Of a stretch of 64,000 bases of DNA, positions 3,293-60,858 are shown in pieces. The position numbers were made by a program, and so were the translations under genes. Origin of the DNA: Anisus vortex (lineage: Eukaryota > Mollusca > Gastropoda > Planorbidae); NCBI GenBank assembly GCA_949126835.1, contig OX421495.1, positions 24,276,533 to 24,340,532 of the forward strand, given 5' to 3'. The notes under the pieces were generated by a model that saw only the letters and a program-made list of their open reading frames with translations, ran no database searches and was not told the origin of the DNA. How positions within the stretch are numbered: position 1 is the stretch's first letter; every line of letters starts with the position of its first letter.

Positions 3293-3394
3293 TTATAATT
3301 CTGTCTCTGTAATCGGATCTGTCAGTTGGCTAAGTATGGCTGTTGTTGTGGGTGGGGCTTCGTTCAACCAACACATGCGCATCAAGTCGAGAAT
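3293..3394 (-). other. Terminal exon 9: kinase C-lobe end
   Basis: This 34-codon exon follows the acceptor TCTCATTAG. It reads ILDLMRMCWLNEAPPTTTAI and ends ITETEL-stop. The pattern L-x-L-M-x-x-C-W followed by a helix is the classic helix H/I end of Tyr and Tyr-like kinases, with the usual arginine of subdomain XI missing. It joins exon 8 in phase 0. A minus-strand AATAAA at 3145-3140 is a candidate polyadenylation signal. Confidence 0.75.
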
Positions 3395-6300
3395 CTAATG
3401 AGAAAAAAAGAAAGAAAAAAACACAAAATATAATAATATATAAACTGTGATCCTTCAACTATCAATAGGCCTACACTAATTTCTGTGTGTGATAAATTTC
3501 ATAAAATACACTTCTAAATAATATAATAATATAATACCTGGTGTCCAGCAGAAGAGATGTCTCCGCTGCTTCTTAATCTCATTGCCAGTTTGTCGAATGT
3601 CTGGTGGTTGGCGGGAAGTAGGTCACTCATTCTGACAATTGAGACGCGCGAGCTAATGCCGTGACAGAATCGAATATGTCGCCCGTCCATCCCTGACAAT
3701 AAACCGACTACGTCTTTAGAGTCCTCTGTTTCTTCACGGCCAGGCAGCATCGCCACTTCCCTGATCACGGAGTCGTCCACATCCTGGGTACCTCTCAGTC
3801 CAAAATTCGAAGGCATGTTGATTGGAGGGCCCTGGTGGTTAAATATTCTCTCAATCATAAGCTCCTTTGGTATTTTGTTTTTCATCTCAGACGCGGAGCC
3901 ATGCCCCGAGAGAACATCTTGTAACGCTTTCAAGGAAAGTTCAGAGTCAGGACGGTTTATAAATGCTCTTGATTCGTCAGAATATTTCCCGGTCTCGTCC
4001 GGTATCTCTTTAATAATGTCATCCAGGGATGGGATTGGAGATAACTTATGAATCTGGTCCATCTCCTCATCGTCCTCATTTTCTAAGTCGCTGCTGCCAT
4101 CTGCGCCTCTGGCTAAGGCTTCATTGTTAAAATGTTCTGCCAGGGGGCTTAATAGTGAGTTAGTCCCCGTGTGGAGCTCACCTCGCGAGTCTCCAGGTAT
4201 GACCGAGACTTTGAAAGCTATGCCTTTCTTTAGCAGCTCTCGGTAGCGCCGGGAGGCAGCACTGCTGGCTTCGCTGGAGCTGCTGGTGTAGTGTTCCCTT
4301 GAGTGCGCCAGGTGCCTGTGGTTCCTCTTTAACTTATACGACCCTCGACGCTGCCAAGATTGACTCCTATGTCCAGGAGATGGATACTGCTCGTCTGGGG
4401 CGAGAATACAACCAGGCGACTCAGTCTGCTCTTTACTTCTCGGCAGTTTTCGTCTGTGCATATTGACGTCATAGGATGAGAAAGAGTTGCTGTTGCTCCA
4501 GGATTCAGAATCTTGACTTCCGGTCCAGCTGGAACTGTTCTTGTTTCTCTGTGAGCTACTGAGACAGTTGGAACACGCACAGCTGCAGGTGGTGCCTTGA
4601 GAGAAAGCTTCCGACGGCCCAGAACACGAGCCGTCCTCCACGGTCTGCAGTGCTGATGCCGCACAGAGACATGACTCTTCGCTGGAGACTGAGGCGCTGT
4701 CGAAGCCACTGTCGATAAGTTTGACACCTGGCGGCAAGTTCTTGTAGGAAGGGTCTTTGGAACTGTTGATTATTTCATTCATGTCGGACTCGATTTTCTC
4801 CACGCTGATTTGTTCTCTAGTGTAATTGTTTGACCGTGAGGATGAATCACTGTCTGTTGAACCTGCGTCCGCTGTAGAGGAAGATTTACCACTTAGTCTC
4901 GCTGATTCGTCGTAACTATTAAAACTGGACATTCTTTCAACGCCTACAGATTCTGCCATAGCTTGTTCTATGTGTGGTGATTGAGGTCTCTGTCCTGCAG
5001 GAGTCTGCTGCAACTGGGGAGATTGTGCTATAGGCGGAGGCTGCGCTTGGGGTGTTTGTGCTGTAGGAGGCTGTGGTGCCGGTCGAGATTTAGTTGACCG
5101 GACTTTAGAGACGGGCTTTCTCTCTTGTGTTACCTGGATTGACTTGTTTGGCATTTCTGGTCCACCTGTGTTCTGAATAATGCTATCTATTTGTGTTTGA
5201 ACAACCTCACCACTGATATTGAGCGTTCCATCGCCCCGTGGCGTCTTGGCATACTTCATCTCTATTTCTCTAGCCCTTGCCCCACGGACTTGAGCAACTG
5301 TCTGAAGTTGGGGAATAGCTACAACTTCTTTATTGTTCAATGCCTTCTTCAGGGCAGTCCTGGCTTTGGTTCGCTTCATCGATGACCTTTGGTTCCAGGT
5401 AGTCGATGCCGTGTTCCCAGCACTCGTAGGCCGTTCGGCTGATCGTTGTGATCTTTGAGTAGCAGAACTGGAAGCAGTGTTCGGCCTGGCGGTCATTAAC
5501 GTTAGACCTTTATTTTGCAGATGTGCCTCTTCGTTGTAGTTCAAAGAGCCTGGTATGTCTGGCAGTGTTTTGGTATTTGCTTTAGGGAAGAGAACTCCGT
5601 AGGGCACTTCTATAGTATTTGCCCCTAGCTCTCGCCTGACTCTTTCGTCATAGCTTTCTAAAAGCTGTTCTACCTCGGCGTCTTTTTTAGCTTTGAACAA
5701 TTCATCTAAAATTTCATCCCCTCGCCTTGACCTGTCTGTCATACCAGGCAAGACATCGAGACATTCCGAGTCTTTAGTCTGGCGGGCTGAAACTGGTCGA
5801 TACACCTGTTTGACGCCAGAAATTGTTGCCTTTTCCGAGACAGTATTATGCTCGGACAGTACAGGTGTACTTCCGCCACCACTGCCGTAGCCGGAGCTCG
5901 ATGCAGCACTGGACTTTTTTGCCTTCAGAGTGGCCGGAATAAAAACCTCCCTGCCGTCTTCCGTTTTTGACGTGACATAGCCAGCTTGTTGAAACTGGCC
6001 GTTTTTACGCGTGTACCGTTGACCGGATTCAAATACTTCTTCTTCAATAGTGTTTACACTTTCCGACATATTACTTTGGTGATGAAATACAGAATTCTCA
6101 GATGCTTCTTTTACCAAGGTTATTCTAGTAGCTTGAGGAAGAGCGTCACTGTGTTGTCTCCCATCTTCCATTTCAGATGTAGAATTGCTTTTCACTTGCT
6201 CTCTCCAGTTGGAACTGAGTGCCATGTCAGGGGAGCGAACCTGGAGTTTCCAGTTCTGATCAATGTTGTATTCTCTTGACTCTTCTAGCTCTTTAACACT

Positions 6301-9300
6301 CGTTAGCGTGTTTATCTTCTTTGAATCATTGCCGAGAATGGCGGGAATCTGTTTTTGGAAATCATCTTTTGCATCCAGCTTACTAGAAGCCCACATTTCA
6401 TTTACCTGCAGTCGACGCCCCAGTGTTTTTGACAGGTGAACTGCGTTGGCACTAACAGCTCCATTGTGGACACTCGGTGCTTTATCGTGATATGGCCGAT
6501 GGGACACTTTATGCCTGGGCTGCTGTGCCCAAGTTTGGTTTGAGTTTCGGAACTTTGGCTTCTTGATTAGCTGTTGGCACTCACAAACTCTGGCCAACAT
6601 CTCTATACCGACTAGAGCGTAAGCCCGGATATCTGGATACAGGAAACGTTTCCGACTCATAGTGCTGTTTGAAGATCCAGTCAGAAACGTTCCGTAGATC
6701 TGAGCATCTTCAAAATCTCCTACTGCAGCCCTTAGTGCAGCGTACTGGGGGAAAGAATATAGGGTATTAGTTTATGTTTAGTTTATGCACGAACATTTAA
6801 CACTAGTTTATTGTTAATGTATGCCATTTTTGGACAGTAGATTAGAGTAAGATTATGCAAGAACATAGGGCATTAGTTTATTGTTAATGTATGCCATTTT
6901 TGGACAGTAGATTATAGTAAGATTATGCAAGAACATAGGGCATTAGTTCATTGTTAACATTCATAAAAACATTGGTATACCGTTTTTAAACGATATTATA
7001 TATTATAATTAAATATATAACATCTTTTAATAAGTTGGCATTCATTTAGACCTATATAAAGACTTGAAATGAGACCGTCTATTTGGTTTAAAGTTACATT
7101 TAGTTCAATACCACATAGACAGAAACCAAACCTCACAAACTTATTCAACAGGATATAAATTGGCTAGCAGTTCTGACATAAGAACAGTCTTACAAACCTG
7201 TATGGAGCCCTTGAGATATACTGTAGATGACGTCAGATTCCTATGTAAAACATTCTGAGCGTGTAAATAAGACAACCCTTCGGCTATGTCATGCATGATT
7301 GTTCTTTGACATTGATCAGGCAGGGGCGTGTCCATTTTTTTCAAGAAATCCTGCAGATTTCCACTTGATGTTAACTCCAAACAGGTTAATCTGCATACAA
7401 GGAAATCAATAATGTGGATCATATAATAATAAAAAATGTGTCTTTGTTTAAACAGAAGTTTATGAACACATGTCAACGAGTGTTCAATAGATAAGCGAAA
7501 AATGTCTTATGTTCACTTAAAAATCTGCAGGTTTAAAAAAAAATTATAGATAGAAAAAAACCCATTATAACGCTAAGAATAGAGCCTAATATTCTTTTAT
7601 TATATTAATAATGTACAAGCTAAACATTGCGCCCATTATCTTTCTATCTATCGTCTATCTGTATTTCTGTTATTCCTTCGTGGAACTGTCTACACATCTA
7701 TATATATATCCTTCCTTCCATCTATGTATCTACTTCAGTCTATCTATCTGCCCATCAAGCCATTTATCCATTTATCTTTTTATTTATTTATCTATCTGTC
7801 TGTCGGTCTCTCTGTCTTCCCGTCCACGCGTCTGTTGACTTATTTATAATATTTATCCATACTCATATCTATTTATTCTTCTCCCCCTCCCTCCCTCTCT
7901 CCCTCCCTCTTTCTTTCTTTCTTTCCAGCTGATATCGGGTACTTCTTTTAACATGTTTGTTTTTTGTTCTAGTAAAAAGGGTTTTTATATATATGTGTAC
8001 ATAAAATGTATTATAAAACATATTTATTTTAAGGCCTTAGAATGATAAAAGTATTAAATCACTTGCGACATAAGTTCATGTTACCAAAGGAAGTCCAGGT
8101 ATGGGAGTGTGTACAAATACAAAGAGTTATAAAATTCACCTTGAGTCCAAAACAGCTTTAATCACCTTGAGTTATAAACAGTCAAAAATTTCAAACCCTG
8201 AGTCACATACAGCAATAAAATACACATTAAGTCACAAACAGTTATAAAATTCACATTGAGCCACATACAGTTCTAAAATTCACATTGAGTCAAAAACAGT
8301 TATAAAATTCACCCTGAGTCACATACAGTAATAAAATTCACATTAAGTCACAAACAGTTATAAAATTCACATTGAGTCACATACAGTTTTAAAATTCACA
8401 TTGAGTCACAAACAGTTATAATAAAATTCAGCTTAAGTCACATACAATTCTAAAATTCACCTTGAGTCACTAGCCACAATGTTCCCACTAATGAGAGTCA
8501 TAGTTTCATAGTAAGGGTTGGAGTTGCTGGTCCACAGACACTGCAGGACACTGGCACTGTGAGATTTTCTCAGGAGACCCAGCACCACGATTTCCTGGGC
8601 CCAGGCCTTGATGTGTTCGGGGCCGTACACTTTCAACAGCCCCTGTTTCCAGACCCCTTTGCCTGCTGCCCAGCTTGCTTTCAAACGAACTCTTCCAGGT
8701 CCCTGTTAGGATTTCAAATTAAATGAAAGTAAAATGGCAAATAAAAAAATCTAGTTCTTCGCTAGACAAATAAACAGTGTTTTTTCACTATCTCTCTATC
8801 TTTCTATTTATCCATCTATCTATCTATTTGTCTATCTGTCTGTATGTCTATCTTTTTATTTATCTTTCTATCTATCTGTCTTTCTTTTTGTATGTCTGCT
8901 TTTTCATCCACCGATTCCTTGATACAACTAATATTTTTGTATCTAGGTATCCATCGATCTGTGTGATATGTCTGGTTATCCCAGTAGTTGTTTGCGTCTA
9001 AGTGTCTATCTATTTGTTTATCTATATATCGATATATCTAACTGCCTATCTACCCATCGATTTATCTATATGTCTGTTTATGTAATATGTCTGGTTATCT
9101 CTCCTTGTTTAAGCACCTACCTATAAACTAAAAATAAACTGCTTGTATCTATCTCTATTTACACAGTGATAGGCTTCAAATTACAAGAAACAATGGAGGT
9201 GTCGATTTGCGTCTTTACATTATTTTATGTATTTCCTTACCACCTAGAAAACAACAAACACACAGGTACACATGCTACACCAGAGATTCCATTTCAGCTC

Positions 9301-12300
9301 TCCACTCTCGAATTACACACTTTATTAGTTATCCAGACACTCACCTCAGTTCTAATCAGCTCCAACTGCTTCAACCTGTGGTGTGGCTCTTTCTTGTGTC
9401 CAGTTCGGTCACAGCACAGGCTGCTCCACATGGTCAGCTGCACCAGGGCCAAAATTACGTGCACAATGACCAGGGCAGCAAAGGTCAAGAGCCCCGCCCA
9501 CTGTGGCGCACTGGCCTGAGTTTTGTTGCCGTAGACCACTGCCGTCAGTACAACTATCAACAGTAGAGCCATGCCCAACTCTATCAGAATGAACTTGTGC
9601 AAACTACGACCTTGTTCCATCTATGATAACAAATGGAAATTATTTTTTTTAGAAACCAACTTCTGTTGTTGTGAAAATAAAGTAATTGTTTATATAGACT
9701 CTCTTATTCTTTATTCCACCCCGTGGAGCATATTAACAAGTATTCCATCGGACAGAATTAATTTATAGACCCGGTAAAGTAGCGTTCACCAGTTTCTGTA
9801 GACCATGGCATACTATGGGACTGTGTAGCCTGTACATGCCCAGCCGCGTATATTTTACCCCTACTTATATCAGGCACCCATCAGAGCTGGTTAGACTCAT
9901 GGACGCCCTCGGCCACCAACATGAATCTGACATTGAAGCTTAAAGAAAGTTTTGATTATTTTACAATTGGCTTCTTTTTTTTAATTTTTTCTTTTTCAAC
10001 TCTTTTTGTTATTTGTTTGTTGTTGTTTTTGATCTGTTGTTATTGTTTTACAGATAGAAATGACATTTTATTTATATCTTCGCAAAACAAAATAAGAACT
10101 ATAATAACTCGCCTTCTGCATCTGCCAGAGACTTGGTGATGATGCATGCACTCGTGTACTGGGACCAGCCCAGAATTTGACTGCAACTACCACACATAAT
10201 ATAAAGGAGACTGCCAGAATGACCCACATGATGAAAAACAATATAGCACCAAATGTATCTCCTTTAGCACCTTCCTGGAAATTTGTGGAAGAAAAATTAA
10301 TATTATATTGTATACTGTGTTATAGTAAGTAAGTAAGTAAAGTAGGCCTACCCTTCGGACCAAACTGATCATATGGCACCCATTAGAGATGGGTAGACTC
10401 GGGGACACCCTCAAGTCTCGGGAAAAAATCCTAGCCTTCACCAGGATTCGAACCTAGAAACTTCGTACTACCGCTCGGCCACCATGCCCTTATACTGTGT
10501 TATAAAAGGCTGTAATTGGTTGCCTTTTAAATTAATGTCAGATTTTGATGAGCTCTCGTTTCAGCAAGACAATAGTCTAACGCTTGAAAATCAATCAGAA
10601 ATTAATAATTAAAAATTTATTTCCCATTTGGTTACTAATAAATGTATTCGTAAAACGACCAAAGTACCGAAGTAGAGATACTTATTTCTAAATGTATGAG
10701 AGTATAATTACTTAAACGTCGCTCTATCGTGTATAGCCTTAGATACAATTTGGTGCATGGACATCAATAAGACAAACAAACCATTAAGTTACGCTACAAT
10801 AAATGCACCCCCACACCATATTGTCAGGTTGTATTCATAAAAAGCTAACAATATGCAGGTGTTATTATAAAACCTACTTGTCGAACTGGGAAACACATAA
10901 GTGGGTATGGCGTGGATTGATCAAAGTCTTCTAGAGGTAAGACAGGTAGCGCAGACAGGATACAAATCACTACTTTCTGAAGAACAACCATCACCAGGAA
11001 ACCTCCCCACCTGCAAGGATACATATTATACATATATATCAATACACAAATAGGATATAGTATTAAATATATTTATATTTTGTATGTTTTTTATATGCGT
11101 GTGTCAAAATATTTTCTTAGTTTAAACTATATCCAATCCAACAATGTTTCCTAATTTCTCATTATATAAGCCTTTCTCCCCAAACTAGTTTTTTCTTAGC
11201 TGTTTTTAAAAATGATTTACTAATAGGCCTACTACTGCTAAACCTGTCTAGAATTAAAATTAGCTTCCTTGTCTTCTTTCATTCCCTTGCTAGCTAAACG
11301 ACAGAACTTAAATCCAGTCAACCAGAAAAATTTGTTCCAACCCATGACTAACAAAAAATGTATAAAACCACTAAATCGGAAGTAAGACAACATGATGATA
11401 CTTTAAGTTAGGAAATGGCAGTCTAATTAAAATTGTATTTGTATTACACAATGAGTTGTGTTAAATTAACAACAAGCTTCAATATGTTTACAGCTTTGGT
11501 ATTAGTTTAAGATATTGTATTAGCTTGTTATATAATTTTGTGTGTGTAAGCCTTATTTAGTTGCGACTATACAACCAATAACAATTATCACACACTATAT
11601 ATGTCTACACAATGCATAGCATCATAATAAAAGAAATCAAAATGCATAACATCATAATAGCCTACATGACATCACAATACTTGACATCATTGTACACAGC
11701 ATCACAATGCTTGTCAAAATGAATTATCAGTTATCAGATGAATACATGACATAACAATACAGTACATCACAACATATGACATTTCAATACACGGAATCAC
11801 ACTTAATAATAAAAACATACATAACAAAACATGGGACAAGGTAGCCGAGCGGCAGCGATCTGAAGGCCCTGGGTTCGAATCCTGGTGGAGGCTGGAGTTG
11901 TTTTTTTCCAGGACTTGAGAGTGTCCCTGAGTCAACCCAGCTCTGATGGGTATCCGACATTAGTTTGGGTAAAGTAAAGGCTGCTGGGCATTGTGCTGAC
12001 CACATATCCACTAGTATGCAGTGGCCACAGAAACTGATGAACGCTGCTTCACCAGCCCTATGATCAGTTTGGTCCGAATGGTACTTTAATTTACTTTTAC
12101 ATAACAAAACACAATACACAATCTCTACAAGTCATCAACTATACAAACCGATATAAGATATATACAGACGATGTACAAAACACAATACACAATCTCTACA
12201 AGTCATCAACTATGCAAACCGATATAAGATATATACAGACGATGTACAAAAAAAGTTTTCAATTCTAGCTGCCAATATTTTATAATCTTTTTGACATCCG

Positions 12301-14049
12301 CTACGTCATTTTAAGTTTTATACTTTTTCTTTAATTATTTAATTTTGGGTGATATTGTTTTTTTTCAATGTTTAACAGTATTGACATATTCCTGGTTCAA
12401 AATTACTTTTAGTCAACCAAAATACCTACAGTACATATTGATATGGATACAGACTTCACTGTAAATGTTACCTAAATGTGGATAAATGTGACATCTTGGA
12501 AGGATTCTGTATCAAGATTAATGTTATTCCCATGAAGGTGAGCGATGACGCAAGGTCAAGGACACCAAAAAGTAAGAAAAATCCTGAAAAGATAGAAAAA
12601 AAACAATTTAAAAAAAACTACTAAAGCTTAAACGTGGGTCTCTGTGTGTGCCTGTTTGTCTGTGTGTTTGTGTATATCCTGTGATTTAGCATGTATGTGT
12701 GGTTAAAGCCAATCAGTAAAGGGTAAGGGAAGGATTGCAAATGAGGTAGAAAATCAATGGATCAATACATCAATGAATCAATAAATCAATATGTCAGCAT
12801 CAAAGCAAGAGAAAACAATTGAAAGAAAAAACTAACTTACGTAACCCAGAAATCAGTAGGATTGAAAGACCACAAACAAATAAACACACTAACAGAAACT
12901 TAGATATTCAATGTAAACAATGCATAGCATTGCAAAACAAACTACTATGTCATTTTGCCACTTGTGTGAAATTACACTAAAAGATGTATTAGATAGCTAT
13001 TAGATTTAAATCCCATTAAATAAGACTTATTTCCCCTGATTTGTGTTATATCTTTCATTGGTTGACCATCACAAAAGATTTCTCTTAACTCGTATCATTG
13101 AAAGCAATACAAATTATTGTGAGCTATAAGATATAAAAGGCAGAGGGATGAATAAAAGAAATTTCACGGGAAAATTTGTATTTAATTATACCTTTGTTTT
13201 ATTGTTTTTAAATTTACGGATGTTTTATGTAAAAATTTTTGCTGCGAATAAAATATTTAACACATAGGTCTAATAATTATTTCTCTCAGTAAAGCATTCA
13301 TCATTGATGAAAGAGGGTGCAATTTTACAAAGAAGTCTGAAGACACAATAATTGATCTAAGATATAAAATAATAAATTATTCGATCAATCACTCAATTAA
13401 TAACTATTTCTGAATACATCTTTTTATTTATCTATAAATAATCAATATATAAATATATCTATTTATCAATCTATAGACCAACATCTATAAATCAATCTAT
13501 GAACCAGTTAATCAATTTACGCATAAAAGGATAAATAGAGATATATTTAGAAATCTGATTAGTCTGGCTATCTGTCATTTTTGTTGTGTGTTTGTGTGTC
13601 TGTAAAATATCCCCCCCCCTATCTACAGATGAAGTCTCTGTATTATTTTCCCTTGAATCTTTGCTTTAAAAGTCTGTTATTTTTTTAAGAGTCTTTTTAT
13701 GTATTTTACCATCTCCTATCCGACTAATGAGAAATCAGTAGCGTGATATGATAAGTCTGAATATTCACCAGTCTCAAGATTCATGTGTGTTTAAAAATAA
13801 TATAAATCTATAGCTTAGCAGTGAATGAACATGAGTGCGTCAGATTTAAAATGAGAAACGACAAAGATTTTTTATAAGAAACTTATATCTTTATAGAAGG
13901 AGTGTCTGTAATATATTATTATAAGATATCAATCTTTGGATGCTTATAGTTTTACACTGTTGGCGTTAAACTTTACAATTACACTTACAAAAACATGGCT
14001 AAGCAGGTATTTATATATATACTGTATATATATATATACAGAAAGAGAC

Positions 14050-14094
<45 letters not shown>

Positions 14095-14573
14095 TAGAGG
14101 TAGACACATAGAGAAAGATAGATGTAGACAGATACTTACAGAGACAGATAGACTGAGACATGAAGATTAGAGATAGATAGAGAGTTAGAAAGAGAGGTAT
14201 ATTGTATTTTTTACGAACGAAGTATGAAATAAATCATTAAAAATAAATGTAAAATGGCAACAATATTTCTTTTACATTAACATATAAACAAATCATAATA
14301 GAACTGACCTCCGGCTGTACAGCTAGCATGACTTGCTCCTCCAGTGTGACAAGCAATAAGCAGAAGACCCAAACTGAAAGCCATAAATGCTACATCCTGA
14401 CATATCAAACAACATTTCCAGGCTATGGGAATCACGAAGCCAAGAACCAGCTTGGTGATCAAGCAAATGGTGCAGCCAATCAGCGCAATGGCAGATGTGA
14501 CCAACAGCGCCGTATGCAGGCCTGAATCTGTCACATTGCTGGAAAAATCTGTCACATTATTATTGCTTGTCAT
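3293..14573 (-). CDS. Seven-transmembrane pseudokinase protein, nine coding exons
   Basis: Exons in transcript order: 14573-14309, 12583-12472, 11010-10878, 10274-10113, 9620-9345, 8702-8461, 7390-7198, 6744-3538, 3394-3293. All junctions keep phase and the total is 4692 nt, or 1563 residues plus stop. Exons 1-5 (residues 1-316) give seven hydrophobic segments. Residues 317 to about 515 are a kinase-like domain: glycine-rich start GPGRVR, putative Lys340, HRN (446-448) in place of HRD, Thr453 in place of the catalytic-loop Asn, and DFE (471-473) in place of DFG. After the subdomain IX-like segment DIRAYALVGIEML (499-511) comes a long disordered stretch, then a C-lobe end (ILDLMRMCW, 1531-1539). 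The lost catalytic residues indicate a pseudokinase; ligand and partners are unknown. The start ATG at 14573 is the first in its open frame, but an upstream non-coding or coding exon is possible. I do not recognise a named family. Confidence 0.8.
3538..6744 (-). other. Giant insert exon (exon 8): DFE motif, then about 970 low-complexity residues
   Basis: A single 3207-nt exon, residues 462-1530. The acceptor is CCCCCAG/TAC and the donor CACCAG/GTATTA. It starts with the kinase segment VGDFEDAQIYGTFLTG and the helix-F-like DIRAYALVGIEML. The rest is rich in Ser, Thr, Gln and Glu. It includes a charged, possibly coiled stretch (DEILDELFKAKKDAEVEQLL), a Pro/Gln-rich run (about PQAQPPPIAQSPQLQQ), a cysteine cluster (CSCACSNC), a Ser-rich run and an acidic patch (LENEDDEEMDQ). 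The final part (LLPANHQTFDKLAMRLRSSG) again looks like a kinase helix G region. It may be a phosphorylation or docking platform; that is inference. Confidence 0.75.
6781..6960. repeat. 70-bp tandem repeat in intron 7
   Basis: The segment around TTATTGTTAATGTATGCCAT recurs with a 70-bp period (copies at about 6810 and 6880, partial third to 6956) within the intron between exons 7 and 8 of the pseudokinase gene. Confidence 0.8.
7636..7930. repeat. TCTA/TCTG-rich microsatellite tract in intron 6
   Basis: Imperfect TCTA, TCTG and TTTA tetranucleotides followed by a CTCC/TTTC pyrimidine tract. The long open frames across it are repeat artefacts (Leu/Ile/Tyr/Ser runs). Confidence 0.8.
8125..8470. 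repeat. 29-30 bp minisatellite overlapping the exon 6 splice donor
   Basis: About 11-12 units of the form TAAAATTCACATTGAGTCAC followed by (A)AACAGTTA. The last unit overlaps the end of exon 6, so the donor CTCAAG/GTGAATTTT lies inside the repeat unit and variants of it recur along the array. Confidence 0.85.
8785..9085. repeat. TCTA/TCTG microsatellite tract in intron 5
   Basis: Interrupted (TCTA)n, (TTTA)n and TCTG units, giving spurious hydrophobic open frames on the plus strand. Confidence 0.8.
9768..9922 (-). mobile_element. tRNA-derived SINE, internally deleted copy
   Basis: Reverse-orientation match to the family at 11826-12100: GCGTTCACCAGTTTCTG, CATCAGAGCTGG, and CCTCGGCCACC (the A-box end). 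The B-box part is missing. Lies in intron 4 of the pseudokinase gene. Confidence 0.7.
10323..10495 (-). mobile_element. tRNA-derived SINE copy
   Basis: Minus orientation. It contains the complement of a B box (GGATTCGAACC) and of an A-box-like sequence (CGCTCGGCCACC), plus the shared body CCATTAGAGATGGGTAGACT. Intronic, just upstream (in transcript order) of exon 4 of the pseudokinase gene. Confidence 0.8.
11826..12100 (+). mobile_element. tRNA-derived SINE, reference copy
   Basis: The 5' part carries a pol III A box (GGTAGCCGAGCGG) and B box (GGGTTCGAATCC) about 35 bp apart, as in a tRNA. A non-tRNA body follows (CAGCTCTGATGGGTATC, GCTGCTGGGCATTGTGCTG, AACGCTGCTTCACCAGCCC). About nine copies of the same family occur in the window. 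Confidence 0.85.
12104..12250. repeat. 71-bp tandem duplication
   Basis: Two nearly identical copies including ACAATACACAATCTCTACAA (12111 and 12182). One difference is obvious (ACTATACA versus ACTATGCA). Immediately follows the SINE. Confidence 0.9.
13990..14200. repeat. TA, GA and GATA microsatellites
   Basis: A (TA)n run near 14010-14040, (GA)n at 14053-14090, then GATA/GACA-type units. Intronic, between exons 1 and 2 of the pseudokinase gene. Confidence 0.9.
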
Positions 14574-18644: not shown

Positions 18645-21600
18645 ACTTGACCAAGAGAACTGACTATGAGGAGTTGGCAAGATAACACTGACTGTAATGA
18701 AATCTCCTCAATATTTAGCAAGATAAAACTGACTGTAATATAATTTCTCTCAACCTTAATCAAGATAAAACTGACTTTAATAGCATATCTCTCAACATAT
18801 ATCAAGATATAGCTTGCTGTAATGGCATTTCACTCAACATATATCGAGATATAACTGACTGTAATAGCGTCTCTCTCAACATATATCAAGATATAACTGA
18901 CTGTAATGACATCTCTCTCAACTTATACCAAGATATAAATGACTGTAATAGCGTCTCTCTCAACATATATCAAGATATAACTGACTGTAATGAAATCTCT
19001 CTCAACTTATACCAAGATATAACTGACTGTAATGACATTTCTCTCAACTTATACCAAGATATAATGATATAACTGACTGTAATAGCGTCTCTTTCAACAT
19101 ATAGCAAGATATAACTGACTGTAATGACATCTCTCTCAACTTATACCAAGATATAACTGATTGTAATAGCGTCTCTCTCAACATATATCAAGATACAACT
19201 GGCTGTAATGTCATTTCACTCAACATATATCAAGATCGGTTGCCCCCCAAAACTGCTCAAACTTATCACCTCCTTCCACGACAATATGCAAGGAACGGTG
19301 CAATATGACGGCTCTGCGTCCCACCCATTTCCCATTAAAAGTGGTGTAAAGCAGGGCTGCGTACTTGCTCCAACATTATTTGGAATATTTTTCTCCCTTG
19401 TGCTGTCCAGCGCCTTCGAGATCTCCGAGGACGGTGTATTTATACGCACAAGATCTGACGGCAAACTATTTAACCTGGCACGTCTCAGGGCCAAAACCAA
19501 AGTACGCCATGTTCTAATACAAGAACTTCTCTTTGCTGATGACGCTGTTCTTATATCCCACACACAGTCAGGTCTTCAGAATTTGGTTAGCTCTCTAGCT
19601 CGTGCTTGTCAAGAGTTTGGACTTACCATTAGCCTAAACAAGACAGAAATAATGGGTCAAGATGTAACGGATGTCCCCACCATCAACATTGGAAGCCACA
19701 GCCTGCAAGTTGTAAAAGAGTTCACCTACCTTGGATCCACTATATCCAGCACCATGTCCCTTGAAAATGAGCTAAATAAACGGATAGGGAAAGCTTCTGC
19801 TGCCATGTCCAAACTATCAAAGAGAGTGTGGGAAAATGGCAAGTTGTCATTGGCTACTAAACTGTCCGTATACAGAGCTTGTATTTTAAACACCTTGTTA
19901 TACGGCAGTGAGAGCTGGACAACATATATGTCACAGGAACACCGCTTAAACACGTTCCACCTACGCTGCTTGCGTCGAATTCTAGGCACCACCTGGGAAG
20001 AACGCAAATCAAACCAAGAAATCCTAAGCCAGGCCAATGTACCAAGCATGTATGCTTTGCTATCACAGCGTAGACTGCTTTGGCTTGGCCACACTAGGCG
20101 CATGAATGATGGCCGAATACCAAAGGATATCCTGTATGGAGAAATGGCCGCAGGATCTCAAGCCACAGGTCGGCCTCTTCTTCGATACAAAGATGTGTGC
20201 AGGCGGGAAAGAAATGGACATAGTAGAGGACTCATGGGAGGAGGTTGCAGCTGACCGAGGATGGCCACAATGGGATGGCCTCCCAAGAAGCAAAAAGGGC
20301 CAGGGCTGACATTGACAGAAGGCAGAAAAGGAAGGCAAAAGCATCCTCCATACAGCCACCCTCAATGTATAAATGCGAGGGATGCTTAAGGGACTGCCAC
20401 TCGAGGATAGGGCTGTTCAGTCACAGCAAGCGCTGCCCCTCATTGAAATCACAAAACCCCTAGGGCGCATCCATTGTCTTGCGAGACAGATAGGAGCCAT
20501 ATATATCAAGATATAACTGACTGTAATAGCGTCTCTCTCAACATATAGCAAGATAAAACTGACTGTAATGACATCTCTCTCAACTTATACCAAGATATAA
20601 CTGACTGTAATGACATCTCTCTCAACTTATACCAAGATATAACTGACTGTAATAGCGTCTCTCTTCACATATATCAAGATATAACTGACTGTAATAGCGT
20701 CTCTATCAACATATAGCAAGATATAACTGACTGTAATGACATCTATCTCATCTAATACCAAGATAAAACTGACTATAATAGCGTCTCTCTCAACATATAG
20801 CAAGCTATAATGATATAACTGACTGTAATGACATCTTTCTCAACTCCTACCAAGATATAACTGACTGTAATGGCATTTCTCTCAACATATATCAAGATAT
20901 AACTGACTGTAATAGCGTCTCTCTCAACATGAATCAAGATATAACTGACTGTAACGGCATTTCTCTCAACATATAACAAGATATAACTGACTGTAATAGC
21001 ATCTATCTCAACATATATCAAAATATTACTGACTGTAATGGCATTTCACTCAACATATATCAAGATATAACTGACTGTAATAGCGTCTCTCTCAACATAT
21101 AACAAGATATAACTGACTGTAATGACATCTCTCTCAACATATATCAAGATATAACTGACTGTAATGACATCTCTCTCAACATATTGCAAGATATAACTGA
21201 CTGTAATGACATCTCTCTTATTATTTAGCAAGATATAACTGACTTTAATGGCATTTCTCTCAGCGTATACCAAGATATAACTGACTGTAATAGCATCTCT
21301 CTCAACATATTGCAAGATATAACTGACTGTAATGGCATTTCTCTCAACTTATACCAAGATATAACTGACTGTAATGACATTTTTCTCAACTTATACCAAG
21401 ATATAACTGACTGTAATGACATTTTTCTCAACTTATACCAAGATATAACTGACTGTAATGACATTTTTCTCAACTTATACCAAGATATAACTGACTGTAA
21501 TGACATTTTTCTCAACTTATACCAAGATATAACTGACTGTAATGACATTTTTCTCAACTTATACCAAGATATAACTGACTGTAATGACATTTTTCTCAAC

Positions 21601-22795
21601 TTATACCAAGATATAACTGACTGTAATGACATTTTTCTCAACTTATACCAAGATATAACTGACTGTAATGACATTTTTCTCAACTTATACCAAGATATAA
21701 CTGACTGTAATGACATTTTTCTCAACTTATACCAAGATATAACTGACTGTAATGACATTTTTCTCAACTTATACCAAGATATAACTGACTGTAATGACAT
21801 TTCTCTCAACTTATACCCAAATATAAGTGACCGTAATGACATTTCTCTCAACTTATACCAAGATATAACTGACTGTAATAACATTTTTCTCAACTTATAC
21901 CAAGATATAACTGACTGTAATGGCATTTCTCTCAACTTATACCAAGATATAAGTGACTGTAATGACATCTCTCTCAACGTATGTCAAGATATAATGATAT
22001 AACTGACTGTAATAGCATCTCTCTCAACATATTGCAAGATATAACTGACTGTAATGGCATTTCTCTCAACTTATACCAAGATATAACTGACTGTAATGAC
22101 ATTTTTTCTCAACTTATACCAAGATATAACTGACTGTAATGACATTTTTCTCAACTTATACCAAGATATAACTGACTGTAATGACATTTTTCTCAACTTA
22201 TACCAAGATATAACTGACTGTAATGACATTTTTCTCAACTTATACCAAGATATAACTGACTGTAATGACATTTTTCTCAACTTATACCAAGATATAACTG
22301 ACTGTAATGACATTTTTCTCAACTTATACCAAGATATAACTGACTGTAATGACATTTTTCTCAACTTATACCAAGATATAACTGACTGTAATGACATTTT
22401 TCTCAACTTATACCCAGATATAAGTGACCGTAATGACATTTCTCTCAACTTATACCAAGATATAACTGACTGTAATAACATTTTTCTCAACTTATACCAA
22501 GATATAACTGACTGTAATGACATTTCTCTCAACTTATACCAAGATATAAGTGACTGTAATATCATTTCTCTCAACTTATACCAAGATATAAGTGACCGTA
22601 ATGACATTTCTCTAAGACTTATACCAAGATATAACTGACTGTAATGACATTTCTCTCAACTTATACCAAGATATAAGTGACTGTAATATCATTTCTCTCA
22701 ACTTATACCAAGATATAAGTGACCGTAATGACATTTCTCTAAGACTTATACCAAGATATAAGTGACCGTAATGACGTTTCTCTTATCTTATTGCA
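18645..22795. repeat. 42-bp satellite array
   Basis: Tandem units of about 42 bp: CAAGATATAACTGACTGTAA, then TGACATTTTTCTCAACTTAT, then AC. There are roughly 65-70 copies apart from one LINE insertion. The outer units are diverged (GCGTCTCTCTCAACATATAT variants). The inner blocks at about 21340-21800 and 22085-22410 are almost identical unit to unit. Because 42 bp is 14 codons, the array reads open for up to 250 codons on both strands as an exact 14-residue repeat. This is not evidence of a gene: other parts carry stops and indels. Confidence 0.95.
19237..20502 (+). mobile_element. 5'-truncated non-LTR retrotransposon inserted in the satellite
   Basis: An open frame to 20254 encodes the second half of a LINE reverse transcriptase: KSGVKQGCVLAPTLFGIFF (motif 4), ELLFADDAVLI (catalytic FADD), KTEIMG, FTYLGSTIS, then the thumb/C-terminal region (LLYGSESWTTY, LRCLRRILG, LLWLGHTRRM). 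A frameshift near 20215 moves the end into the next frame, where a Cys/His segment CEGCLRDCHSRIGLFSHSKRC follows in a third frame near 20370. The flanks ATATATCAAGAT on both sides may be the target duplication, although the motif is also part of the satellite unit. Confidence 0.85.
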
Positions 22796-24034: not shown

Positions 24035-26475
24035 GGACAGCACTGCAATGTGGAATCAAATGAGTGAGGACCAAGGCTCTTGGAGTTTGCCAGCTTTAAC
24101 GACCTCATGCTGGCCAACACACTGGGCCCACACAAGTCCTCAAGAATAACCACATGGCAGAGCCCAAACGGGAAACATCACAACCAAATCGACTACATCA
24201 TGATAAAAACACGCTTCCGGTCAAGTATAAATATTGCTAAGACTCGCAGCTTCCCTCGAGCTGACATTGGAAGTGATCATAACCTAGTCATCATGACCTT
24301 TAGGCTACACCTAAAAAGAATACAGAAAAAGGGGTACACCAGGATCAAATTTGACCTCGAAAAGCTAAAGGATCCTAAAGTAGCAGAAGCCTTCCAGGCA
24401 AAGATAGGAGGGAAATTTGCAGTCCTCAATATCTTAAATTCTGATTTTATGGGCTTGGACACATTGATCGACACCTTCAATACAGTTGTGACCGACACAG
24501 CTCAGGAGATTCTTGGCAAACATAGACCGGCCAAGAAACCATGGATAACATCAGACATCCTGGAGCTGTGTGACGAACGACGCCGACTAAAGAAAACAAA
24601 GACAAAAGACCAGGAAGAAGCCAATAAATACAGAACAATAAACCAGACAATTAGGAAAGGTATGAAAAGGGTAAAGAAAAACTGGATTGAGGAACAGTGC
24701 AACGACATTGAAAACTGTTTAAGGAAGAACAATATCAAAAAAAGCATACCAATTAGTAAAAGAACTAACCACCACTAAGCACGGGCGCACCACCACCATA
24801 CAGGATAAGGATGGTAGAAACCTGACTGAGGAACCAGATATCTTAAAAAGATGGACTGGGTACTGCTCGGAACTGTATAATGACAATATCACTATAGATC
24901 CAGATATACTAAACGTCCCTCCAGCCACAGACAATGACAATCACCCTCTCCTCCGTACAGAAGTGGAGGCAGCAGTCCAAGCACTTCAAAAAGGAAAAGC
25001 TGCAGGAGTGGATAACATCCCTGCTGAGTTGGTGAAAGCAGGAGGGGAAGCCATGGTAAATGTCTTATTGAACATTTCAATAAAATATGGATAACTGGAC
25101 ACTGGCCTAAACCATGGACCCAGTCGTTCATCATCACCCTCCCCAAGAAAGGCAACCTACAGCAATGCCAGAACTACCGCACCATCAGCCTAATAAGCCA
25201 CCCAAGCAAGGTCATGCTCAAAATAATTTTAAGCAAACTCAGACCTTATGCTGAAAGAATCATTGCGGAAGAGCAGGCAGGCTTCAGGCAGGGACGTTGA
25301 ACCACAGAGCAGATCTTTAACCTGCGAATACTCTGTGAGAGGCAGGCGCAACATCAACAACACTTGTACCATATATTTGTTGATTTTAAAAAAAGCATTC
25401 GACAGGGTCTGGCACGCAGCCCTATGGGCAACCATGAAACATTACAACATTAATGACAACCTGACAATGCTGATACGTAGCCTCTATGACAGGGCCACCA
25501 GTGCAGTCTTTTTCAGCAACAACATTGAAGATTGGTTTAGGACTACCGTTGGAGTACGACAAGGATGCTTGCTTTCGCCAACACTGTTCAACATCTTCTT
25601 GGAGAGAATCATGTCGGATGCACTAGAGGATCATGAATGGACAATCAGCATAAATGGCAGAAGGATCACCAACCTTTGATTCGCAGATGATATAGATGGA
25701 CTCACCGAAAGTGAGGAAGAATTAGCCAATCTAGTGGAGCGACTGGACAAAACTTCCGCATCCTATGGCATGAAAATCAGTGCCGAAAAAACTAAATTAA
25801 TGACTAGTAACACCAGCGGCATCACCACGCAGATCAACATTGGTGGGCAGCGTTTGGAAACAGTTAGCAGCTTCAAATACCTAGGAACTATTGTATCTGA
25901 AGAGGGCTCCTAACCAGAAGTAATGTCCAGGATTGCCCAGACAACAGCATCACTAATGAGGCTCAAGACAATATGGAAAGACAAGAACTTAGCCCTCAGC
26001 ACCAAAATCAGGCTGATGCGCTCACTGGTCCTCTCCATTTTCTTATATGCTTGCGAGTCATGGACACTAACAGCTGAGCTGGAAAATAAGATAAACGCCA
26101 TGGAAATGAGATGCTCGAGGACCATGCTCGGTATCTGTTACAAAGACCATATCTCCAACGAACAGATACGAAAAAGAATACAACAGGAAATTGGAAAGTA
26201 TGAAAACCTGCTGGCTACAGTCAAGTTAAGAAAACTGGAATGGTATGGCCACGTCACCAGAACCAACGGGCTTGCAAAGACCATCCTGCAGAGGAGGCAG
26301 AAAGAGCGGAAGACAAAAGAAACGTTGGGAAGATAATATCAGGGAATGGACAGGTACAAAACTGTGCGAGGCAATGAGAACGGCTGAGAGACAGGAGGAA
26401 TGGAGGAGGCTCGTTTACATGTCATCTGTGGCGCCCCAACGGTCCAAGAGACTACGGGATATGTAGGATGTAGGG
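24035..26475 (+). mobile_element. Decayed LINE: endonuclease C-terminus and reverse transcriptase
   Basis: 24080-24778 encodes the end of an APE endonuclease (NQIDYIMIKTRF, DIGSDHNLVIMTF) and the linker. RT motifs follow in broken frames: GKAAGVDNIPAELVKAGGEA, LPKKGNLQQCQNYRTISLI, EEQAGFRQGR, VDFKKAFDRVWHAALW, TTVGVRQGCLLSPTLFNIF, FADDIDGL. The end is TMLGICYKDHISNEQIRKRI and GRWEDNIREWTG. In-frame stops (near 25298, 25678, 25912) and frameshifts show it is dead. The 5' half of the endonuclease is missing. An RTE-like type is likely but not proven. Confidence 0.85.
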
Positions 26476-37735: not shown

Positions 37736-37777
37736 AATATTTTCTTTCAATTTTTCAGCACTACATTAATCTAAAGG

Positions 37778-39457
37778 ATGGTGAAAGAGGCTGAAGATCA
37801 CCTAAAGACTAAATGTGCAATATGTTGGCAACCATTACGTCCCAAAAGTCCACTTCTTCATGGTACAAAATGTAGTAGATATGAGATCAAGGAGAAGCTA
37901 AAATTTCTGCTTCCACCTCAGGACTTTAATAGTCTATTTGATGAAAAGATATTCTCTAACCCAAGGCTGTGCAATCTCTGCTTTGTCACAATTAGAAAGA
38001 TTCCAAAGACAATATCAAAGGTTCAGAATCTCATTGGCAAAAATATCAACATACAGCTTTATAAACCTCTTAGGTCTGAATGGAAAGATGAACTGTTAGT
38101 TGCAGATAAAAAAAGAAAAAATGATAAATCAGCCATTCATTCAATGCAAGATAAGCATAAATCTTCTTCATGCTCTTTGGTAAAAGGAAAAAGTGTTGGC
38201 AGTAAGCAAAGATACAATGGCTCTTTTAATGGAGTAGAAAGCCAAACTAAAGAAGAAGCTTTTGTAAAGTGTGCAGACTCCTTATTGTATAATTCTACAC
38301 TTGAGACTAAAAATAGAGAAGTGGTTGATATTGTTGCACTAAAGGAAGATAAACACATTACAGGTATGTTCAACAGATACTTAATAATGGAATAAAGCAA
38401 TAATAAAGTAATGCATTATTATTATTACATTAGAGTGTCATTGATGTATAGAAATGTTACATTAAGAAATTAAAATTCTCTATTGAGACCAGTCATGGCA
38501 AATGCATTGGTTAGGCCCAGTCATTGAGGTAAAGTTTTATTGAACACAATGTCCAAAGGCATCATGTATCCAGTGCAAGGTCAACTCATTTATTTTTTCC
38601 AAACAGTGTGTGATATTTAAATGATTAATGACAACTCATGGGTGTTGTCTTGGTTTGTCTTAACTCTTACATGCAGTAGACAAGCGATTTACTGCCAGAC
38701 AACCCATTACTTTGCAGAAAGGAAGTCACAGGACAAAGTCATGTATTTGTTAAGCTCTTTTATTGTTTTATTTTATGTTTATTCTTTGAAACTAATAATC
38801 TACTTTTTGTTTTTATTATTCATTTTACCAGGGGAAAATGAACCAGGGGAAAATGAAATGTCTGTTTGGTCAGAAGGAAATACACATACTCCGTTCACAT
38901 CATTAAAACAGTTCAATAGCCAGACTGTAGAGTCTGGGACTAATGAATCTGGACCTAAGATGTCTAATGGTGGATTGTCATGGAAAGAAAGGAAGAGAAG
39001 AAAAGCTGCTAGAAATCAAGATTCAATTTTAAATAATCGAGGACAGCAGTCACCAGCTAGGAGGGAACGTAAATCTGTTCTAAGAAGTCGCAACAGAAAT
39101 CTTTCTTCCGAGTACAAACAGTCCTCAGATCTAAAACCCTTATCTGACATTACTGATTCTGATACTGAAGGTGAATACATTCCCTCTTATGTAAAGCAGC
39201 CGGAAAGAGGCTCAGAAGATGAGTCAAGGGGACATTGTGAGCATGACCAGAAGGCTCTAAAGAAACTACCAAAAGCAACCGCAAGTAAACTATTAAAATG
39301 TACAAAGTCATCAACTGCCAAGAGAAACTTTACCGATGAAGGAGCAGAAGTCAGTCTTGATGATGGATTAATCAATGGGAAAGTGAATTTAAAAACAGAC
39401 ATTCCTACAGGTTTAAGTGAGATTTCAAAGTCTGTGCTGTTGAAACTGGCAGATAAG
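37778..39457 (+). other. ZAD-like CxxC...CxxC domain and linker exons
   Basis: Residues 1-404. TKCAICWQPLRP and PRLCNLC form a CxxC-x48-CxxC pair. This spacing resembles the arthropod zinc-finger-associated domain (ZAD), a homodimerisation module, but other Cys4 modules are possible. Exon 2 is charged, with basic runs (KERKRRKAARNQ) suggesting nuclear import. Exon 2 has tandem acceptors at 38831 and 38846. Confidence 0.55.
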
Positions 39458-42400
39458 GTAATCAGAAATCTAATTTATGTTTTTAATGCTTAGAATGTTA
39501 ATGTTTTCTTGTTTTGTATTTGAAAGCACATTTAGAAATATTTTCCTTTACAATTATAAGCCTGTTTTAATGATAAATAGACTGTTGAGCTGTCTTGGTT
39601 TCATTGCTTAACTTTTCTTTTCTCAACTTTATTATTATTAAATGACTATAGAGCTAAAATTATTTTTAAAATTGTGAATCTTTAAAAGGTCAAGAAAATG
39701 TTGTTATCTAAAACCCCCAAAACCAAGACTGTATTTATCAAGTGCAATGTGGACAATTGTGATCATGTGTATTCTTGTTGGTCTTACATGGCTGTTCATT
39801 ACAAGTTTTACCATCACAGTATGTATACAAAAAACACATTGGTGTATGTGTGTAAAAAAACAAAAATGTAAAACATTTTAGTGGTAGAATAGCTAATAAT
39901 AGACCTCTTGACTTATTAGAATAAAATATTAGAATGTTTCATTGGCCTAGACAAGTTGAAATTTGTGTGATTTCAACATTATTGATAACAAAGTTTAAGA
40001 TAATAATTCACATTCATTTACAATTACACTTTACACTCTGTCAAATAGATCAAACAGGTTAACTAGTTGTTATTAAATCACTAAATGCTAGTAGTTTGCT
40101 AATATTTTTTCTAACTGTGTAACATAATAACCTACATTAATAACATATTTAATACATTTAGCACTTTAAGGTTAGGGTTGAGTTGATTTTTTCTTTGTAT
40201 TTTACAAATTACAGTATTGAGTAAATAGATGTAATTCAAGATTTTATATTAAAAATCATATGAATAAATTGTTTTACTTGCATCTTTAATATTGTGGATA
40301 TATCTAACAGATGGGCAACCAACTGGTAATGATGAATTTACTCAAATTATGTCAAAGCTAGCTGACTCAGGACAACTTGATAAAGGTTTGAAAGTTTTGA
40401 ATATATTGAAATGTTTTAGCTTTTGTTTTTTTTTAACTAATTTAACTCAAAAGTCTAGAAACAGATGAATCTATTCATAGTATTGTTAAATAATGTACAG
40501 AAAAAAAAAGAGAATTGACTCATGATTGTATACATTCTCTTTTTATTTAGAGTTCTACCCCTTTAGATGTCGTCATAGAGGCTGCAAACTTGCTTTCACT
40601 AAAGAATATTTATTAAAAGTGAGTTTCTTTTACAATAGCACACAGATGGATTTAATAAGTTAACATAGACTAATTGAAATCTACATATGTCCTTTATTTA
40701 TTGATATTTAAACATGCATAATTATTACTTTCTTGGTAATAGTAAAGTAAAGTACCCGTCAGACCAAACTGATCATAGGGCCAGACAGCAGCGTTCACCC
40801 GTTTCTGTGGCCATGGCATACATGGGGATGTGTGGCCAGCACAATCTCCAGCCCCCTTTACTTTACCCCAACTAATGTCAGGTACTCATCAGAGCTGGGT
40901 AGACTCAGGGACACCCTCCAGTTCTGGTAACAAATCCTAGCCTTCACAAGGATTCAATCCCAGGACTTTTGGTGCACCAGCTCTCGACCACCGTGCTGTT
41001 ATTTACAATCACAATTTAAAGCAGGTTGAGTATTTAAAAGAACATTCAATATGAATTTTTACTATCTAGGAACACAAGTTGGTTCATGGTATGGACTTAG
41101 TCTACATTTGTGGATTTCCTGATTGCATTAAAGCTTTCAAGGTGGCCAGATCGCTGCATGTCCACTCTAGGTCTCATGCAAAGGGACAAACAGTTGATTG
41201 TGATGTATTGAATAGTGGAAACAATTGTACAGACAGTAAATCCCAGCGTATCAAACTTATGTCTCTACACACAGGTTGGTATCTGTTTATTTATAGTTTA
41301 ATGTCAACATTGTTTTGTAATTAGTTATTCTGTATTCAGGTTATTGATTTTTGTTAATATAATATATTTTAATATTTAAAAAATTCCATTGATATTTAAA
41401 AAAATCTATTGAGCTAAAAGATTAGTGTGGCAGGGTCATTTTAATTCTTGGATCGTTGTGGTTTATTTTAATAAGATGCTTAATATAAATTATGCAGAAG
41501 GATTAAATGGTAATGAATTAATGAATTCCATAATACAAGATTTATTTTACTTACAAAAAAGAAAACAATATAAAACTCAGGACTTTCTCAAAGGTAGAGA
41601 ACAAACTCTTTATTTAATAAATCTAAATCAAGATCAATAACTGTAAACTGAAATGTGAATGAGACACTGTTCTACGCCCACTAGTACTTGTTACATAATG
41701 GTTATAAAATAGTTTAAGTATGGGAACAAAAGTAAGGTTATTATAGCAAAATATACACCACAATAAAATTAAATCAGGAAACTGAAATTCAATAAAAGGA
41801 CCTAGGCCTATGTCAGTTATGAAAAGGTAAATCTATAAGTTTCTTGAATTAGTCATGAAAACCAACAACTTAACATCACATTTAAAACTTTGAATACAAG
41901 AATAGACTTCAATCATGGATAAGCTTAAGAAACATTAGTCTTCAAATTTATATTTGTTGAAGACTTTACAAAACAAGCTTAGTAATTTTAATAACGTAAA
42001 CTTTAAAGATTTTTTTGTTCATTATATTATTTAGAAGAAAATTAGCCCATTCAATTGTAAATTAAAGAATTTAACAAAATTTTATTTCATTGCAACAGGG
42101 AATCACAGCTCACCAGTCAATAGAGACACATATTCTTGTGATCTATGTGGCAAGCACTACTCTAATGATCTGGGTCTTGCGGGACATAAAAGAAAGATTC
42201 ATGGCAGTGAGTTGTTTCTTTTTGTATGATTGAATATTTTGTATTAATTGTTGATTGTTATAAAAATGCACCATTAAACGACTACCTTTCTTTGTAGCTT
42301 TAGAAAATGTATCTTGTCAACTAAATCTACTTTCTATAGCTTCGCTGAATGGTTTCTATTGTTCTGGCTGCTACTTTAAACTAGTATTTACCATTTGCGT

Positions 42401-54838: not shown

Positions 54839-55423
54839 TTATATGTCACAATTAGACATTCGACGTCTCCTAGGGCACCTGCCGCCGCTGTTAGGAGCAA
54901 GTATATCTTCTTTTAATCCACCCGAATTATGGGGTAGGATGCGTCGTAGCATTGCTGGGACTTTTTTAGCTGTTGTTGAAGTCTCTTCAATGGAGGTCGG
55001 TCTAGGAGTGGTTGGTCTGTTAGCCTGATACTCAGAATCAGATGTACTGATGGGAAGATTCACTGTTTCAGGTGTAGATTCTGGGAAACCTGTTGGTGGC
55101 AGGTTAGTCATAGTTTCACCAGAGTGCTCAAAATGTGTGTCTGAGGGCTCAAAAGGTGTGTCTGAGGGCTCAACATTTCCTATTGTTTGAGGGTTATTTG
55201 TATAATTATCATTGGCTGACCAGGTCTCTTTAAGTGAAGTGTTTTCGATCGCCAACGATGCTGGCTTGAAAGCCCTAAGAAATCGCCTGTTCCTCTTTGT
55301 AAGTCTACCAGATCCATCAACCTTTACCACATACTGGTCATGCTCAGTTGAGTCTACTATGGTTCCTGTTCGGTGCCATTTGTTAGGATTATTCCCAGTT
55401 TGGTTTTGTATTGTATGAAGCAT
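54839..55423 (-). pseudogene. Frameshifted C-terminal part of the gypsy polyprotein
   Basis: Continues the integrase C-terminal region in another frame: NNPNKWHRTGTIVDSTEHDQ, then YVVKVDGSGRLTKRNRRFLR, the usual GD-x-V...W.RTG.IV small-barrel domain. A Thr/Pro/Ser-rich tail follows, ending near the left LTR. Separated from the main frame only by the 5-bp duplication at 55407-55416. Confidence 0.8.
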
Positions 55424-59508: not shown

Positions 59509-59552
59509 GTTGAAACGAAGAAGAAGGATATGTTGTCGCTAATGTATATTCA

Positions 59553-59705
59553 TGAAGAAACTCCTCATTCAGTGTTAAATGTATTTATTCACATAAACGA
59601 CGAACGATGAATATACATGTCGGACATAGGACATTGACTGAAACAATACAGGTAGAAACTAATTAACATATAAACATACATACAATATCTACAGGTAACC
59701 CTTCA
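59553..59705 (-). repeat. LTR (5' LTR in coding orientation)
   Basis: 153 bp, same termini as its partner. The coding-strand sequence immediately after it (59552 downward, TGAATATACATTAGCGACAA) should hold the primer-binding site, but I could not assign a tRNA. Confidence 0.93.
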
Positions 59706-60475
59706 GGTGTGTTACTTGACGTGTTAATCTTAAGGACTTTGCTTTTTCTTCCAAGTATGTTCAGGCCGATGCATGCAGAGTAGTGTGCTACGTAGTTAGT
59801 TTTCTCTTGCATTTGTTGCTGTGTGTGTGACAATAGGGCCAGATCGTCTGCAAAATCCAGGTCATCAAGCTGCTTCCATAGTGTCCACTGGATGCCATTT
59901 TTCTTCTGCTCTGTAGAAATTTTCATTATCCAGTCAATGGACAGCAGGAATAAAAAAGGTGAGAGCAGACATCCCTGTCTGACACCAGTCTGTACACCAA
60001 AAGCTTCGGTTGTTTGGTGGTCATGAACAATTCTGCAAGATAGTCCTTCATAGGAAGTTTTAATTATGTCTGTTAATTTTTGTGGTACCTCGTAGTGTCT
60101 CAGCAGTTTCCACAGAGTACATCTGTCAACACTATCGAAAGCCTTCTCATAGTCGATGAAGTTAATATATAGTGGCGAGTTCCACTCCAGGGATTGTTCT
60201 ACTATAAGTCGCAGTGTGGCAATCTGGTCTGTGCAAGATCTGTCTTTTCTGAAACCTGCTTGTTGGTCCCTAAGATGGGTGTTTATTGCCTCCCTCACTC
60301 TATTTAGCAGTACTCGGCTAAATACTTTACTAGGTATGGATAGCAGAGTTATTCCTCTATAATTTGAGCAATCACTAAGATCACCTTTCTTTGGAAGTTT
60401 AATGAGATGACCTTCTTTCCATTCTATCGGTATCTTTTCTTCCTCCCATATCTTCTTGAATAGAGTGTGTAGCAT
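59663..60475 (-). pseudogene. LINE reverse-transcriptase frame, interrupted by the LTR insertion
   Basis: RT palm with catalytic FADD in DLDFADDLALLSH. The natural frame runs to KINTSSNTP at the insertion point (59706-59710); codons beyond that point belong to the LTR. The frame resumes at 54673. Confidence 0.85.
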
Positions 60476-60858
60476 CTCAGTGGCTGGTTGTAATGTTTGC
60501 TGTCAAGGCTTCTGCTGGTATTCTGTCTGGACCTGCCACCTTGCCTTTCTTTAATTGTTTAATTGCTCTGGATATCTCTTGTTTTGTGGGAGTGCTGCAG
60601 TCTATCTCTAGATCTTGTTCCGCTGGCTCTATGTTAAGAGTGTGTTGTGGGGCTGGCCGATTGAGGAGTTCTTGAAAATGTTCTGACCCTCTTTGTCCGG
60701 TATCGGTTTTCCATCTTTATTTTTGACTGGTCTCTCTGGTTTATTAAATTTTCCAGATAACTTTTTGATTGCGCTGTATAATTCTCTTGTGTTTCCATGG
60801 TGAGCTGCTTCTTCTGCTTCACTTGCTAATCCTTCTATGTAGTTCTTTTTATCTGATT

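Follow-up and report, generated by a model that had tools for sequence, protein, structure and literature searches.

A seven-transmembrane protein continuous with a kinase-like domain lacking catalytic residues in gastropod and bivalve molluscs

A gene on the minus strand of a 64,000-nucleotide stretch of the genome of the gastropod Anisus vortex (GenBank assembly GCA_949126835.1, contig OX421495.1, positions 24,276,533 to 24,340,532; the whole stretch is hereafter called the window) encodes, in a single chain, a seven-transmembrane (7TM) part with the predicted fold of a G-protein-coupled receptor (GPCR) and a kinase-type domain that has lost catalytic residues. This combination, which a preliminary description had read from the letters of the window, is kept across gastropods and bivalves and occurs on transcript-like contigs of ~6-6.8 kb. 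On balance, we favour the view that the protein is a molluscan receptor composed of a GPCR-fold 7TM part, a linker, a cytosolic pseudokinase of the tyrosine kinase (TK) or tyrosine-kinase-like (TKL) type, a disordered segment and a PDZ-type C-terminus, and that it signals as a scaffold or switch.

The gene model, based on splice signals and homology, consists of nine exons that join in frame into 1563 residues with a single terminal stop, in agreement with the earlier reading, and the junction between exons 5 and 6 (9345 to 8702) lies where it had been placed. All eight acceptors are AG and seven of the eight donors are GT, the donor of exon 4 being GC. A search of the source genome (863 Mb, 159 contigs) with residues 1-528 gave 15 matches, of which the eight strong ones were the gene's own exons 1-8 and the remaining seven were weak (E 1.6e-4 or worse) and confined to the kinase part. 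No second copy was found among the best candidates, which were the ones scored, and the gene is single copy as far as the search shows.

Successive protein searches, each of which scored ~8000 candidates with the most shared words inside a length window and favoured long chains, yielded 41 relatives (35 + 5 + 1), eight of which, exon-8 frames or a 7TM fragment, do not include the catalytic loop. The closest is from Biomphalaria pfeifferi (67% identity), followed by Bulinus (63%), and all 29 organism-named relatives are gastropod or bivalve; no non-molluscan relative is named among the candidates scored, which does not imply absence elsewhere, and no cephalopod or chiton appears among their organism names. 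The order of parts is identical across the complete chains. Region identities and trees were computed for 29 chains including that of the window, leaving aside shorter chains and four odd or partial models (P0002, P0027, P0030 and P0036). Averaged over the 28 long relatives, identity to the window protein is highest in the kinase-like part (64%) and the 18-residue linker (61%), intermediate in the tail (44%) and the 7TM part (38%), and lowest in the insert that follows the kinase-like part (25%). Gastropods are split from bivalves in separate trees of the 7TM part, of the kinase-like part and of the remaining sequence (support 1.0, 0.999 and 1.0, respectively), and all three also recover Heterobranchia, Caenogastropoda, the window protein with Biomphalaria, and the pectinids. 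Because the trees agree on these groupings (five were compared, not whole topologies), the parts have been inherited together since before the gastropod-bivalve split. Public records call the relatives 'hypothetical', 'uncharacterized' or 'unnamed', or give them generic kinase names, with LRRK2 in one case; the records of P0005 and P0024 are named LRRK2 or non-specific serine/threonine protein kinase despite the missing catalytic residues.

The continuity of the chain is also suggested by transcript-like contigs. Four relatives (P0020, P0022, P0026 and P0027) have open frames 1738-1900 residues long, and their longest contigs measure 5999-6846 bases; P0026 represents a cluster of 489 member sequences, and P0027 is without the first helices. 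In contrast to these, seven frames (P0031-P0035, P0039 and P0040) start, or turn from unrelated letters, at the start of exon 8, and all seven depart from the family at its end. Two of the seven sit on contigs that measure 1.24 and 0.52 Mb, and the exon-8 frames are therefore genomic, so that bivalve-type genes seem to carry introns at both ends of exon 8, and the 6 kb contigs spanning both places are best explained as spliced mRNA. Their source label, 'lgn', presumably denotes assembled public reads. A model built from splice signals and homology could in principle have joined two adjacent genes, but continuous relatives across many species, whole or nearly whole frames on the 6-6.8 kb contigs and the recovery of the same tested groups by the part trees make such an artefact extremely improbable. 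Two bivalve-type chains, P0022 and P0025, contain short additional stretches precisely at the exon 7/8 junction (window 7198 to 6744), between the catalytic loop and DFE, which may reflect alternative splice sites.

The membrane part is encoded by the first five exons. Exon 1 (14309..14573) specifies an N-terminus with two N-x-T sites, TM1, TM2 and the start of TM3, including Cys85 (14319-14321); exon 2 (12472..12583) covers TM3 and the initial stretch of intracellular loop 2; exon 3 (10878..11010) the rest of that loop, TM4 and extracellular loop 2 with Cys165 (10893-10895); exon 4 (10113..10274), the one with the GC donor, TM5, intracellular loop 3 and the opening residues of TM6; and exon 5 (9345..9620) TM6, TM7, a juxtamembrane CC pair and the linker. 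The seven hydrophobic segments originally noted reappear as seven helices in a structure model of the B. pfeifferi relative, which is 74% identical to the window protein across this part, and their modelled arrangement is that of a GPCR. Cys85 and Cys165, previously singled out as a possible TM3-loop pair, are invariant in 13 of 13 relatives in each of two alignments (A1 and A3), predicting a GPCR-type disulfide. A Pfam identity for the 7TM part was rejected, the best match being to a domain of unknown function (E 0.0035, 13 members) and lying below cut-off in the member scored; a sequence match in the PDB, to a single chain at E = 1, was likewise set aside.

The kinase-like part begins with exon 6 (8461..8702), which encodes the N-lobe with beta3 Lys340 (8631-8633) and alphaC Glu353 (8592-8594). 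Exon 7 (7198..7390) runs from the hinge to the catalytic loop, with HRN (residues 446-448; 7237-7245) and Thr453 at the place of the catalytic Asn, and exon 8 (3538..6744) continues with DFE (471-473; 6709-6717) and an alphaF-like PDIRAYA. The kinase character proposed for this domain is borne out by a match to Pfam PF07714 (E 6.3e-9; score 35.9 bits, cut-off 23.1) and by a profile-profile match (probability 98) to six kinase sequences of the source genome, in which HRN falls opposite HRD, Thr opposite the loop Asn and DFE opposite DFG. That alignment spans the hinge, alphaE, catalytic loop, DFG and alphaF; since the N-lobe, like the tail, is outside it, the beta3 Lys and alphaC Glu were assigned by motif position. 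In PDB searches with the family profile, TYK2, LIMK1 and LRRK2 were separated by no more than about 1 bit, whereas with the window sequence alone TYK2 had a lead of 6 bits when its two domains were added together. A Pfam scan of the window protein matched neither DEP nor cyclase families.

Judged from sequence, this domain is a pseudokinase. The catalytic Asp is replaced by Asn in 32 of 34 sequences, by Arg in one and by Lys in one, and none of the 34 has Asn at the catalytic Asn position; the H-x-x triplet occurs in seven different versions. The Gly of DFG is Glu in 39 of 42 sequences, Asp in one, Leu in one and unseen in one, and the glycine-loop stretch is without conservation in an alignment of 11 sequences. 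These losses speak against an active but unconventional kinase that would bind ATP by means of the Lys, Glu and DFx Asp it retains and would phosphorylate slowly, an alternative that we consider unlikely, although the alphaC Glu is present in 34/34 sequences, the beta3 Lys in 33/34 and the DFx Asp in 41/42 (the remaining one being the 7TM fragment), and although HER3 carries the same Asp-to-Asn change and has weak activity. As the triplet varies and contains Asp in no lineage, an ancestral loss of catalysis is suggested, and the high overall conservation implies that the kinase fold is still needed. HER3, with HRN, and the JAK JH2 domains, with HGN, resemble the molluscan pseudokinase in that the catalytic Asp is replaced and the beta3 Lys retained, and they have an allosteric role, acting as a switch or scaffold; unlike it, they belong to a single-pass receptor or a cytosolic kinase, without a 7TM part.

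Beyond alphaF, most of exon 8 encodes a poorly conserved, S/T-rich insert of ~950 residues, 62% of which are S, T, P, Q, E, K, R, N or D, and which is probably disordered. Only 44 of its 955 alignment columns are occupied by one residue in at least 90% of sequences, and six contiguous ones form the longest near-invariant run, DSGFDS (residues 1139-1144; 4696..4713); no run of six arose in 20000 column shuffles, which ignore the clustering of conserved columns. The motif is exact in 35 of 42 sequences, has D-to-E or S-to-T variants in two more and is replaced by DSGFDEDS in three caenogastropods. It fits the pattern DSG-hydrophobic-x-S, which we take to be that of a beta-TrCP phosphodegron. The conserved C-terminal tail and the stop are encoded by exon 9 (3293..3394). 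Among 33 complete tails, 30 end in ETEL (3296..3307 in the window), two in ETEV and one in TETL, so that 32 close with TEL or TEV, presumably a class I PDZ ligand (S/T-x-hydrophobic).

The preliminary description had grouped residues 1500-1563, the tail, with residues 317-515 as the kinase part; that the tail is the end of the kinase lobe was not confirmed. On its own, the tail matched no Pfam family in three of three sequences, its addition to the kinase query raised the window score from 39.5 to 40.5 bits, and it received no scored placement in the kinase lobe in the profile-profile alignment or in four PDB alignments. It carries a conserved CW..PP pattern, without a statistical match to kinase alphaG to alphaI.

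The same description knew of no animal receptor family combining seven TMs with a kinase fold in one chain, a view that the literature does not support. GPCR-TKs are reported from choanoflagellates and sponges and GPCR-TKL/Ks from acanthoecids (PMC12716839), the latter with 176 members and a kinase domain in 92 of them, and GPCR-TKLs from oomycetes and amoebozoans, including 17 in P. infestans, eight with a DEP domain (PMC5784254). The molluscan protein has the architecture of these groups, a 7TM part and a C-terminal kinase-type domain in one chain, and, as in the GPCR-TKs, this domain may be of the tyrosine kinase type. Compared by description, it differs from GPCR-TKs in its kinase, which looks catalytically dead, in the long insert before a conserved tail and in its occurrence in molluscs, and the word 'pseudokinase' is absent from the main text of PMC12716839. 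GPCR-TKL/Ks and GPCR-TKLs are multi-copy, whereas one copy of the molluscan gene was found and it is without a DEP match. Receptor guanylyl cyclases likewise couple an inactive kinase domain to a membrane receptor (PMC4883820), but they are single-pass and have an active cyclase, in contrast to the molluscan protein with no cyclase match. For the oyster kinome paper, a term search of the main text found none of 'GPCR', 'G protein-coupled' and 'pseudokinase', and among the titles listed by keyword searches of open-licence literature, a scope that excludes most subscription papers, none was on a molluscan 7TM-pseudokinase. The union of a 7TM part with a kinase-type domain is thus a known kind, and the kinase-dead molluscan form is without a description in the literature searched.

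In the mechanism that we envisage, the N-terminus would lie outside the cell and the pseudokinase in the cytosol; an extracellular cue would shift TM6/TM7, and the linker would relay this movement to the pseudokinase N-lobe. The distance from the linker EP to the beta1 Trp is identical in 32 of the 34 sequences, so TM7 could transmit its movement directly to the N-lobe. The pseudokinase might then serve, by analogy with known pseudokinases, as a conformational switch or a docking scaffold for a partner kinase or effector without phosphorylating, an allosteric or docking output being the likeliest given the predicted absence of catalysis. A PDZ protein could position the complex through the C-terminus, and phosphorylation of DSGFDS could lead to removal by beta-TrCP; from the motifs, both anchoring and removal are plausible. 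The full scenario, in which a GPCR-fold receptor predating the gastropod-bivalve split signals, without catalysis of its own, through an attached pseudokinase that docks and activates a partner kinase, with a phosphodegron and a PDZ anchor, is advanced tentatively, with slightly less than even confidence. If true, the design of this receptor would differ both from G-protein coupling and from receptor tyrosine kinases, and it would occur in a bilaterian lineage for which a search for 7TM-tyrosine-kinase chains reported none. The strongly conserved form in snails, oysters and scallops places such a chain in animals open to culture and manipulation. Because its kinase looks dead, it also isolates the question of whether a 7TM protein is able to signal through nothing more than a kinase fold.

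Several observations weigh against this receptor interpretation. The class A motifs D/ERY, NPxxY and CWxP are absent from all six sequences listed, so that G-protein coupling is not to be assumed, and no 7tm family is among the Pfam matches listed for the window protein and its relatives; neither motifs nor a 7tm_1 match thus place it in class A (rhodopsin). Both absences would fit seven helices that constitute a membrane anchor, transporter or channel resembling the GPCR arrangement, which we nevertheless regard as quite unlikely beside the modelled fold and the invariant cysteine pair. N-terminal N-glycosylation sites are missing from 11 of 17 bivalve-type chains and from the Bradybaena model, and the linker varies slightly in length just upstream of its EP core, where P0007-P0009 and P0027 gain or lose residues. 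In a joint model of the 7TM and kinase parts (mean predicted local distance difference test score, pLDDT, of 59; residues 294-410 and 439-504 under 50), the kinase half is too poor for the model to say how the two parts pack.

A further point against the fused receptor is P0041, a 324-residue relative with eight member sequences that comprises the 7TM part only and stops six residues beyond the exon 5/6 junction, with an end that reads like a GT donor. This hints at a product without the kinase, arising by read-through of intron 5. Intron 5 of the window gene (9344-8703) contains AATAAA 19 bases past the donor; as about one such hexamer is expected there by chance, it was not accepted as a polyadenylation signal. 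P0041 and the hexamer would accord with a 7TM part that chiefly works alone, the fused form being a minor or regulated isoform, but we find this doubtful, given that the kinase loop is present in 33 relatives, including the large P0026 cluster (not a measure of abundance, as the searches favoured long chains), and that the kinase part is better conserved than the 7TM part.

Within the introns of the gene, two stretches (about 10320-10490 and 11830-12060) have tRNA-like B-box wording and, by eye, the look of short interspersed nuclear element (SINE) copies; ARAGORN reported no tRNA at either. Elsewhere in the window, long frames at 19157-20254, 24068-26336, 55357-59538 and 59663-62151 resemble, in translations read by eye, reverse transcriptases and the polyprotein of long terminal repeat (LTR) retroelements. 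A tandem array at 21225-22655, with repeats of ~14 residues (QDITDCNDIFLNLY), is open on both strands. Finally, plus-strand frames at 37775-44744, with C2H2 zinc-finger-like patterns from about 42990, probably represent one or more separate genes.
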